Assembly: GCF_002210425.1 (NCBI RefSeq)
Contig: NZ_MWQK01000004.1
Coordinates: 62,001-126,000 of the forward strand
Source of the DNA: Fibrobacter sp. UWB2
GTDB taxonomy: Bacteria; Fibrobacterota; Fibrobacteria; Fibrobacterales; Fibrobacteraceae
Length of the DNA: 64,000 bases
Reading direction: 5' to 3'
The notes below the pieces were generated by a model that was not told the origin of the DNA, did no database searches, and was given only the letters and a program-made list of their open reading frames with translations. A program made the position numbers and the translations under genes. The first letter of the stretch is position 1, and each line of letters starts with the position of its first letter. Positions 7,684 through 24,199 of the stretch are shown in pieces.

Positions 7684-7713
7684 GCAATAGGCGAAAGCCT
7701 TCGCAACCTTGTC

Positions 7714-7746
7714 ATGCCCGCCTCCGAGCGGGCATCTCCTTTTTAT
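7714..7746 (+). terminator. rho-independent terminator after the DUF349 gene
   Basis: A perfect 8-base stem ATGCCCGC / GCGGGCAT with loop CTCCGA, followed after four bases by a run of five T. Confidence 0.75.
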
Positions 7747-7758
7747 ACGCTAGAGACT

Positions 7759-7789
7759 GGAGATTCCCGGTCAAGCCGGGAATGACAAA
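7759..7789 (+). repeat. palindromic repeat family A, copy 1 (intergenic)
   Basis: GGAGATTCCCGG, then TCAAG, then CCGGGAATGACAA. The inverted halves pair as TTCCCGG with CCGGGAA. The same element recurs at 12460 and 24168. Here it lies between a terminator and the Sua5 promoter. Confidence 0.75.
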
Positions 7790-7826: not shown

Positions 7827-8789
7827 ATGAAATTCCCACCATGGACAAGTGTAAGCGAAGCCGCCCGCCTCCTCAAGGAAGGCGAAGTCGTCGCCATCCC
7901 GACAGAAACGGTTTACGGCCTCGCCGGTAACGCTTTCGAGCCCAAAGCTCTCGCCAAGATTTTCGCAGCCAAAGAACGCCCGACGTTCGACCCGCTGATT
8001 GTCCATATCGCAGACATTGCACAACTCACCGACATCGCGAAGGACATTCCCGATAGCGCCTACAAGCTCGCCGAAGCCTATTGGCCGGGCCCGATGACCA
8101 TCATCCTCCCCAAGAAGGATTGCATCCCCGACCTTTGCACAAGCGCCCTCCCCTCCGTGGCGGTGCGCTTCCCAAGCCATCCGATTGCACAGGCAATCAT
8201 CAAGGAATCAGGACTCCCGCTTGCCGCCCCGAGCGCAAACCTCTTTAAGCACGTGAGCCCCACGACCGCTGAACATGTTGCGGCACAGCTCGCTGACCGC
8301 ATCGCAGGCATTGTCGATGGCGGCCCCTGTTCCGTCGGTGTCGAAAGTTCGATTATTTCCCTTGTTGGCGAACCGACCGTCATGCGTCCAGGCGCCATCA
8401 CGCCTGAAATGTTCAAGGCCATCCTCGGTGAAGTAAAAATCAAGGAATCTACATCCAAGCCGGGCCAGCCGATGCTTGCCCCCGGCCAGTGCGATACACA
8501 TTACCGCCCACAAGTCCCGCTTTACTACGGCGAAGTTCCAGCAGGCTACCCGCTCCCAGAGCATACCGTGCGCATTGCATTCGGTACACAGCAAGGCCCT
8601 GTTCCTGCAACTGTAAATTTGTCAGCAACAGGCGACATGGTCGAAGCGACCTCCAAGCTTTACGCCTACATGCACGACCTAGATACGCCCGATTACGACT
8701 TGATACTCGTCGATCCCATCCCGAACACAGGCGTCGGCATGGCACTCAACGACCGTCTCAAGCGTGCCAGCATCAAGACACTGCCGTAA
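7827..8789 (+). CDS. L-threonylcarbamoyladenylate synthase (Sua5/TsaC type)
   Basis: The enzyme makes threonylcarbamoyl-AMP from threonine, bicarbonate and ATP, the first step of t6A37 modification of ANN-decoding tRNAs. The N-terminal YrdC domain (about residues 10-200) shows IPTETVYGLAG, the substrate-binding KERP and FDPLIVHI, WPGPMTIIL, VAVRFPSHP, LAAPSANLF and SSIISLVG. A C-terminal domain of about 110 residues makes this the longer Sua5 type (320 residues) rather than short TsaC. The frame is open upstream to 7608, through the preceding gene and a repeat. I place the start at MKFPPW because the YrdC domain begins there and a -10-like element sits just upstream. Confidence 0.93.
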   Translation: MKFPPWTSVSEAARLLKEGEVVAIPTETVYGLAGNAFEPKALAKIFAAKERPTFDPLIVHIADIAQLTDIAKDIPDSAYKLAEAYWPGPMTIILPKKDCIPDLCTSALPSVAVRFPSHPIAQAIIKESGLPLAAPSANLFKHVSPTTAEHVAAQLADRIAGIVDGGPCSVGVESSIISLVGEPTVMRPGAITPEMFKAILGEVKIKESTSKPGQPMLAPGQCDTHYRPQVPLYYGEVPAGYPLPEHTVRIAFGTQQGPVPATVNLSATGDMVEATSKLYAYMHDLDTPDYDLILVDPIPNTGVGMALNDRLKRASIKTLP

Positions 8790-12046: not shown

Positions 12047-12889
12047 ATGCTTAAAGTTTATTTAGTCCAGTTCGATAGCGCCAAAGGCAACAAAACCGAA
12101 AATCTAGCACGCGCAAAGAAGATGATTCTCGACGCAAAGCCCGATGCAGGGAGCCTCGTGCTCCTTCCCGAGATGTTTGCCACAGGGTATGTCCCCGCCG
12201 ATCTGGACGATGCCGCCGAAGACTTCAGTTCAAACGAGTCTAGCGAAACATCACGCACGCTCTCCGAAGTTTCCACAGCGACCGGCTGTACCATCATGGG
12301 GGCAGGCATCACCCGCGCAAGCGACGGTTTTTACAACCACGTGAGCATCTACAAGCCGCGCGAAACCAAGGAATTCTGCGGCTACAACAAGATGAACCTG
12401 TTCTTCCCGGAAAAGGAAAGCTTTAAAGCCGGCGAAAATATTAATTTATTTAAATTAAAGGAGATTCCCGATCAAGTCGGGAATGACAATAAGGCAGAAT
12501 CTGTAAGCTGGACAATAGCTTCGTTCATCTGCTACGACCTGCGATTCCCAGAAATCTTCCGCGAAGCGACCAAAAAAGGCGCAAATTTCATCACGATCCA
12601 AGCGGCGTGGCCCGCCAAGAGACGCGCCCACTGGGAAACGCTCATCAAGGCACGAGCCATCGAAAACCAGGTCTATATCGCCGCCGTGAACGCCGTCAGC
12701 GAAAGTAGCGACCAAAAGCTCCCGCTTGCGGGCACCTCCCTCATCATTTCGCCAAATGGAGACGTTCTCGCCGAAGGCCCAACCCAACGCGAAATGGTCA
12801 TTTCGGCCGAGCTAGACCGTGAGGCCGAACGTGATTACCGCAAAAACTTTCCCGTTCTGGATGGTATTGTCCCCCCGGAATTTTTATAA
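12047..12889 (+). CDS. carbon-nitrogen hydrolase (nitrilase superfamily, omega-amidase-like)
   Basis: The catalytic triad is Glu42 (LLPEMF), Lys115 (YNKMNLFFPE) and Cys162 (FICYDLRFPE), with the family motif RAIENQVYIAAVN further on. The family hydrolyses non-peptide C-N bonds; the FPE and CYDLRFPE context is like the omega-amidase/YafV branch, which deaminates alpha-keto-glutaramate-type substrates. Substrate is inferred only. At 280 residues it is somewhat long for this branch. The excess is explained in part by residues 138-148 (KEIPDQVGNDN), encoded by a copy of the intergenic palindromic repeat inserted in frame in what should be a surface loop. No stop or frameshift results, and all catalytic residues are intact. 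Confidence 0.9.
   Translation: MLKVYLVQFDSAKGNKTENLARAKKMILDAKPDAGSLVLLPEMFATGYVPADLDDAAEDFSSNESSETSRTLSEVSTATGCTIMGAGITRASDGFYNHVSIYKPRETKEFCGYNKMNLFFPEKESFKAGENINLFKLKEIPDQVGNDNKAESVSWTIASFICYDLRFPEIFREATKKGANFITIQAAWPAKRRAHWETLIKARAIENQVYIAAVNAVSESSDQKLPLAGTSLIISPNGDVLAEGPTQREMVISAELDREAERDYRKNFPVLDGIVPPEFL
12460..12490 (+). repeat. palindromic repeat family A, copy 2 (in frame inside the amidase gene)
   Basis: GGAGATTCCCGA, TCAAG, TCGGGAATGACAA. It differs from copy 1 at only a few positions, with compensatory changes that keep the stem (TTCCCGA / TCGGGAA). Translated as part of amidase residues 138-148. Confidence 0.8.
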
Positions 12890-23255: not shown

Positions 23256-24194
23256 ATGGCAAATATTGGATATAGTTTTTTAATGGTACTGGCGGCATTT
23301 CTGTGGGGTTCCACATTTGTCGCCCAAATCGAAGGCAACGACGTCGGTCCGTTCGCATTCGTGTGCATGCGAAATTTCATCGCGACAGGTGTCCTTTTCG
23401 GACTGGCGAAGGTATTGGACAAATTCAACAAAAGCCCTAGAAAGCCGAAAACGAAAGAAGAAAATCGAGCTCTCTGGAAGGCGGGCCTGATTTGTGGACT
23501 TACGCTTTTCTTTGGGATGAACTTGCAACAGACGGGGCTTTTTCTCGGATGTTCCGCCGGAAAGGCGGGGTTCCTCACCGCGTGCTACATCATTTTCGTC
23601 CCGATTCTAAGCACATTTTTCGGCAAGAAGATTTCCCCCAAGATTTGGCTTTGCGTTGCCATTACGCTTGAAGGGCTTTACCTGCTCTGCATCAAAGAAG
23701 ATTTTACCATCCAGCCATCCGATATTATCCTATTGCTTTGCGCGCTCGCCTTTGCGGCTCACATTCTCGTCGTCGGAAAGTACGGCCCTTACATGGACAA
23801 TGTGAGACTTTCAGCAATACAGTTTCTCGTGGTCGCAACACTTTCCATTTTCCCGATGTTTTTCGTGGACTTGAAAGGAAATTTTGCGGGGTTTGGCACG
23901 GTGATAGACGTCTATTCGCATTTCAAGCCGTGGATTCCGCTTTTGTACGCCGCCATCCTTTCGAGCGGTGTGGCGTTCACATTGCAAATTGTCGCGCAAA
24001 ACAAATTAAGGCCCACCATAGCATCGCTATTGATGAGCCTTGAATCTGTATTTTCCGTGATTTCTGGATGGGTGATGCTCGGTGAGCGATTCACCCTTCA
24101 AGAAGGAATCGGATGCGTGCTAATGTTCACCGCCGTCATCCTGGCACAAGTCAATATAAAACGCAAAGGAGATTCCCGATTAAATCGGGAATGA
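23256..24194 (+). CDS. EamA/DMT-family transporter
   Basis: 312 residues with about ten hydrophobic helices in two EamA halves (first starting FLMVLAAFLWGSTFVAQ, second ending ASLLMSLESVFSVISGWVMLGE). The family exports metabolites such as amino acids; substrate unknown. An unusual loop of charged residues (NKSPRKPKTKEENR) follows the second helix. The last nine residues (KGDSRLNRE) and the TGA stop are encoded by palindromic repeat copy 3, so the native C-terminus has been replaced or extended. The start is taken at ATG 23256, where GAG precedes closely; it is not firmly fixed. Confidence 0.88.
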   Translation: MANIGYSFLMVLAAFLWGSTFVAQIEGNDVGPFAFVCMRNFIATGVLFGLAKVLDKFNKSPRKPKTKEENRALWKAGLICGLTLFFGMNLQQTGLFLGCSAGKAGFLTACYIIFVPILSTFFGKKISPKIWLCVAITLEGLYLLCIKEDFTIQPSDIILLLCALAFAAHILVVGKYGPYMDNVRLSAIQFLVVATLSIFPMFFVDLKGNFAGFGTVIDVYSHFKPWIPLLYAAILSSGVAFTLQIVAQNKLRPTIASLLMSLESVFSVISGWVMLGERFTLQEGIGCVLMFTAVILAQVNIKRKGDSRLNRE

Positions 24195-24199
24195 CAAAT
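24168..24199 (+). repeat. palindromic repeat family A, copy 3 (forms a gene end)
   Basis: GGAGATTCCCGAT, TAA, ATCGGGAATGACAAAT. Extends the stem by one pair relative to copies 1 and 2. Contains the TGA of the EamA gene and touches the last codon of the convergent NhaC gene. Confidence 0.8.

Follow-up and report, generated by a model that had tools for sequence, protein, structure and literature searches.

Background

Prokaryotic REPs fall into two superfamilies, GTAG and CGTC (Di Nocera et al. 2013, PMC3733652). Members of the CGTC superfamily have an unpaired end reading CGTC (or TGTC/CCTC), an 8–9 bp stem starting with AT, a loop of 4–5 nt and a short unpaired tail that is mostly CCA; their dimers are mainly head-to-head, they lie mostly between convergent or unidirectional genes with some copies intragenic, and they have no associated transposase gene, being stated to lack a dedicated transposase (PMC3733652). 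The superfamily includes dRS3 of Neisseria (CGTC-1) as well as RPE-4 and RPE-6 of Rickettsia (PMC3733652). The CGTC survey covered five phyla, Fibrobacterota not being among them, and left open whether these REPs still move, and how (PMC3733652). Our search of the literature on palindromic repeats in Fibrobacter, and on template switching at REPs, found nothing pertinent.

A hairpin repeat family in Fibrobacter

The window analysed here is a 64,000-nt stretch (C4:62001–126000) of a rumen-type Fibrobacter genome (G000; 3,528,394 bases in 15 contigs). An earlier note on this DNA had described a palindromic repeat with copies at 7759, 12460 and 24168, the second lying in frame inside an amidase gene. 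All three copies are present as described, the amidase reading frame stays open and the repeat is dispersed genome-wide; the repeat at the amidase site, which had been placed at 12460–12490, has a 28-bp core that ends at 12487. On the + strand the core at 12460–12487 (GGAGATTCCCGATCAAGTCGGGAATGAC) reads GGAG-ATTCCCGA-TCAAG-TCGGGAAT-GAC, where GGAG is the tail end and TGTC, on the other strand, the tag end. Folding and stem-pairing analysis place the left stem arm ATTCCCGA at 12464–12471 (+) and the right arm TCGGGAAT at 12477–12484 (+), and the core folds as DNA with −7.7 kcal/mol (z −5.0). The consensus of the hairpin is GGAG-AT[T/G/C]CCCG-loop-CGGG[A/G/C]ATGACA.

The strict pattern GGAGATNCCCGN{2,14}CGGGNATGAC finds 113 copies in the 3.53-Mb genome and none when reversed, and a covariance model built from 34 copies gives at least 150 matches. 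Within the window GGAGATTCCCG with at most one mismatch occurs 7 times against 1.17 expected, a count attained by 0 of 100 shuffles. The reversed-pattern control and the shuffles together rule out a chance origin of the repeat. Rfam returned only two tRNAs from the window. Among 101 Fibrobacterota genomes the strict pattern occurs in 52, every one of this genus; a shorter pattern without GGAG is also found in small numbers in seven other genera.

The stem has 8 bp, AT-N-CCCG-N. Since GGAGAT, CCCG, CGGG and ATGAC are set by the search pattern, the informative stem columns are the two variable (N) pairs, and with this reading stem pairs are 100% standard in 32 distinct copies, with 23 double changes, no single change and no G-T. 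The base after GAC is A in 98% of 42 sampled copies, giving the TGTC tag (GAC itself being imposed by the pattern), and the unpaired tail reads CTCC, the other strand of the likewise imposed GGAG. Loops in aligned copies are of 4, 5 and 6 nt, with long nested loops besides. Most copies are single; 8 of the 42 have an inverted upstream partner, all of them head-to-head (0 TT, 0 HT). As to context, 17 of the 42 lie between convergent and 14 between unidirectional genes, none between divergent genes and 6 within called genes.

These positions, together with a T-rich run that follows the CTCC tail (an A-rich stretch before GGAG on the other strand), are what would be expected if the palindrome were kept for an RNA function, such as termination or mRNA stability, and its place within a gene were incidental. 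We consider this improbable as an account of the family, since the 23 compensatory changes occur without a G-U intermediate, pointing to copying or correction at the DNA level, and the filled, empty and altered sites described below look like those of a mobile or recombining repeat. The more specific reading as an intrinsic terminator is set aside because 4 nt part the predicted stem from the T-rich run. Some copies may nevertheless have such an RNA function.

Comparison with described REPs

Read on the other strand (TGTC-AT...AT-CTCC), the Fibrobacter repeat fits most criteria of the CGTC-tagged REP superfamily. It shares the TGTC variant of the N-GTC tag, an 8-bp stem starting with AT, an unpaired tail, dimers that are head-to-head only, the bias towards convergent and unidirectional intergenic sites, intragenic copies and, as far as the Y1 and RAYT types covered here are concerned, the lack of a dedicated transposase. 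It differs in having a CTCC rather than a CCA tail, in its many loops of 6 nt or far longer (nested) against the 4–5 nt of the class, in that its copies are mostly singletons, and in its phylum, which is absent from the survey. The core of dRS3 reads ATTCCC...GGGAAT, and its likeness to the Fibrobacter element is one of description only.

The earlier note had drawn an analogy with Rickettsia palindromic elements. This is apt at the superfamily level, because RPE-4 and RPE-6 are CGTC REPs (PMC3733652) and the Fibrobacter element fits most of the criteria of that class. Both combine a CGTC-type hairpin with in-frame insertion in genes (in Fibrobacter the amidase, tilS and an oppD-like gene, as read from DNA alone). 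Sequence and host are different, the two being likened by class description and not by sequence alignment, and in the 3.5-Mb Fibrobacter genome the copies are mostly intergenic. The GTAG REPs that occur with RAYT (REPtrons; PMC2817692, PMC3733652) are likewise short hairpins scattered through genomes; they carry an unpaired tetranucleotide on one side and sometimes lie inside genes. The Fibrobacter element differs from them in having GGAG (imposed by the pattern) instead of GTAG, and also in that 0 of 61 Fibrobacter genomes pass the RAYT cut-off and no copies adjoin the Y1 genes examined.

An in-frame insert in a predicted amidase loop

The ORF at 12047–12889 (+) encodes a nitrilase-superfamily amidase (CN_hydrolase, Pfam E 1.9e-37), with Glu42, Lys115 and Cys162 invariant in the alignment made. 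Aligned to the empty orthologues G046, G050 and G044, it carries 45 nt of extra DNA at about 12460–12504 (+; ends uncertain by a few bases), consisting of the REP and a 3′ extension (12488–12504) for which the REP itself does not account. The extra peptide thus has 15 residues (about 138–152) where 11 (138–148) had been proposed. In an AlphaFold2 model from a five-sequence alignment (mean pLDDT 74, pTM 0.81), residues 140–152 have pLDDT below 50 and fall between strands 134–138 and 154–160. The model places the insert in a low-confidence turn of the predicted nitrilase fold, just before the strand with the catalytic Cys, in agreement with the loop location suggested earlier. By its insertion phase and orientation the insert gives a stop-free 15-residue peptide in a predicted β-turn, so the enzyme probably tolerates it, and the amidase presumably still works.

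That one turn is repeatedly occupied by different peptides could be taken as a sign that selection favoured the inserted peptide because it gave the amidase a new function. We regard this as highly improbable: the peptides vary in length and sequence, tracking whichever repeat is present, and the tilS and oppD-like genes behave alike.

The four codons before the insertion (12440–12451 in the window, ATT AAT TTA TTT) show a near-fixed DNA pattern across orthologues (L031–L060); the Leu codon there is TTA or TTG in every one of the 17 orthologues counted, a form taken by 29% of the remaining Leu codons of these genes. The sequences are related and do not amount to 17 independent cases.

Filled, empty and altered amidase sites

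Three close orthologues, G046, G050 and G044, lack these 45 nt and continue without a break. The same short turn is found in 16 of 17 Fibrobacter orthologues that are more distant, the exception (L044) having an unrelated longer stretch. The extra peptide is therefore absent from close orthologues, the outcome that the earlier note had said would indicate a recent insertion; the opposite pattern it had named, the same residues encoded by unrelated DNA, occurs in 0 of 30 orthologues examined. As judged from these alignments, the insert in the amidase is real and derived. A search of named genomes with the amidase gave matches in two MAGs, one of Fibrobacter succinogenes (87% identity) and one of a Fibrobacter sp. 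from yak (71%).

Of the 13 orthologues more than 70% identical, G000, G001, G043, G026 and G006 have a filled site, as does G037 with another sequence; the site is empty in seven (G046, G050, G044, G004, G052, G018 and G038). In G043 and G006 similar arms enclose a nested GGTTCGACA[G/A]GCTCACCAACC palindrome, and G026 has a short CCTGCG centre.

The copy in G001 was probably acquired by recombination on a tract of about 80–95 nt, as the distribution of sequence matches suggests. Just upstream of the gene, over 10.5–12.05 kb, G001 is 98–100% identical to the insert-free G046, while every informative position in 12436–12514 (+) matches G000, with 12430 and 12526 again matching G046. Both G001 and G043 are MAGs, so chimerism in the consensus may explain part of the G001 tract, and the rest of the G001 amidase is also mosaic. 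Insertion as such is borne out; its description as a recent event is too simple, given the patchy occupancy, the distant species in which this codon carries REPs with other loops and the probable recombination into G001.

A single old entry of a REP in the ancestor of the clade, followed by repeated loss and remodelling, would account for extra residues that begin at the same amidase codon in G043, G026, G006 and G037, and for the similar 3′ extensions of equal length in G000 and G043. The short turn in the close sisters and in 16 of 17 outside orthologues speaks against it. Parsimony requires 5–6 changes at the site on either tree, and the pattern is accounted for just as well by repeated insertion or by recombination. 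We hold such an old entry to be possible, if on balance the poorer bet; it is compatible with the identity of the insert as a REP. That the insert is a CGTC-type REP, lying in frame in a loop of the amidase that tolerates it, we consider likely, a judgement that excludes the mechanism of copying.

Other copies and their remodelling

The copy at 7759–7786 (+), identified by sequence, syntenic alignment and folding, is the right half of a head-to-head dimer, whose left half is a fourth, inverted copy at 7711–7739 (−) beyond the three of the earlier note. The dimer (7711–7786) can fold as one, with an outer stem TTGTCA/TGACAA and an inner stem CTCC/GGAG. In syntenic stretches it occurs in G000, G001, G044 and G050 but not in G046; in G050 the loop of the left copy is 21 nt larger, and in G044 the right copy has a 53-nt insertion. 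The copy at 24168–24195 (+) was thought to be intergenic. It is a genuine copy, but lies over the 3′ end of an EamA transporter ORF (23256–24194, +; ORF and domain search), to which it supplies the C-terminus (GDSRLNRE*) and the TGA stop codon, and it is found only in G000 and G001 among the genomes compared. Copies at C4:155561 and C4:304045 also differ between species. At about 13764 in the window, a REP of G001, G046, G044 and G050 is missing from G000 with its immediate flanks (about 49 nt).

Six of the 42 sampled copies fall in called genes, as called by a simple dicodon score rather than a published gene finder. Four are convincing (the amidase, tilS, the oppD-like gene and the Ser-rich linker of a lipoprotein); the other two are doubtful, being in dubious N-terminal extensions. 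The genome being mostly coding, intragenic copies are in clear deficit by informal comparison, as expected if selection removes most such insertions. Those that persist would do so chiefly at sites where a loop tolerates them and the reading frame is unbroken.

In tilS and the oppD-like gene the in-frame copies are at loops that vary between species. At loop 2 of tilS the flanks and arms of G000 and G044 match. One of the two has a centre of 7 nt; the other has a long nested centre, similar in type to the 53-nt insertion at the G044 dimer site. The oppD-like orthologues carry a short REP in G000 and longer ones in G001, G050, G052 and G018. The arms and site of a REP can thus persist while its centre changes. 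Nested insertion explains the long centres, and changed ones could also plausibly arise by template switching between arms.

Several further observations concern these loops. The G044 dimer site (L084, about 8500–8780) and the G044 tilS gene (L131) carry the same type of nested hairpin of about 53 nt (TCCCCATACGCGGATCATG...CAAAGA), which enters two different REPs at the same point, after CCC. Three loops of the TilS proteins of the clade (L005, L130–L142) vary among almost all the species and seem to be assembled from several types of repeat, for example SRSFDFAQDD and REP peptides. In L008 (about 1501–1528) a lipoprotein-like ORF has a REP in its Ser-rich linker, and close by is a second peptide copy that looks degenerate. 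At L156 and L157 (G000 C4:304045 and C2:121546) the REPs have a single left arm and two right arms, with 9 nt of 3′ flank common to both loci. As a donor for the REP-into-REP copy at C4:304045, this single other locus with its 9 nt of common flank was too weak to use.

Mobility

How the copies were made was considered by the earlier note in terms of RAYT, a hijacked transposase or replication slippage. Slippage as sole source is rejected because the copies are dispersed, not tandem. A REP mobilised by RAYT, in which a Y1 transposase recognises GGAG and the hairpin and copies the element in trans, draws on the position of GGAG 5′ of the hairpin, which resembles that of GTAG in RAYT REPs, and on Y1 transposases in 20 of 61 Fibrobacter genomes. 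We think this very unlikely. G000 has no Y1_Tnp hit despite 113 or more copies; roughly 100 copies or more are present in G044, G018 and G050, none of which has a Y1 hit, and G009 and G020 have two Y1 each and no strict copies. The three congener Y1 proteins scanned score as IS200 (139–148 bits) and under the RAYT cut-off, and none of the 61 genomes is above that cut-off (NF047646). At 10 Y1 loci no REP copy adjoins the gene, two of the loci having one more than 1 kb away. Copy number and the presence of Y1/IS200-type transposases do not track. In a search covering the Y1/RAYT classes only, the absence of Y1 from G000 and of proteins above the RAYT cut-off agrees with the published absence of a dedicated transposase for CGTC REPs (PMC3733652). 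A lost RAYT, or IS200 acting in trans, may still have been the mover.

We suggest that a CGTC-type REP, a non-coding DNA hairpin of about 30 bp with a TGTC tag and a CTCC tail, entered the amidase gene in frame, after which homologous recombination would have both spread and removed alleles, and nested palindromes or template switching between the hairpin arms would have reshaped them in place. For the first copying step we slightly favour replication-associated copying of hairpin single strands, to which we give not quite an even chance; some trans-acting transposase is a serious candidate that we likewise put below even. Both are judgements rather than measurements. More speculatively, CGTC-type REPs may still be mobile in Fibrobacter in the absence of a dedicated transposase, through replication-linked template switching between arms, with fixed loops (amidase, TilS, OppD-like) serving as insertion points at which species swap peptides in the manner of cassettes; we think this rather unlikely.

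Implications

The amidase insert is ordinary in kind and unusually informative in detail: an orthologous site may hold the repeat, lack it or be filled in another way. The range of CGTC REPs, and of palindromes inserted in frame, is extended here to Fibrobacterota, which the published survey did not cover (PMC3733652). Pairs of species that differ in the state of such a site make the question of mobility testable in Fibrobacter strains. In this genus a protein loop rich in indels can consist of repeat DNA and not of evolved sequence.
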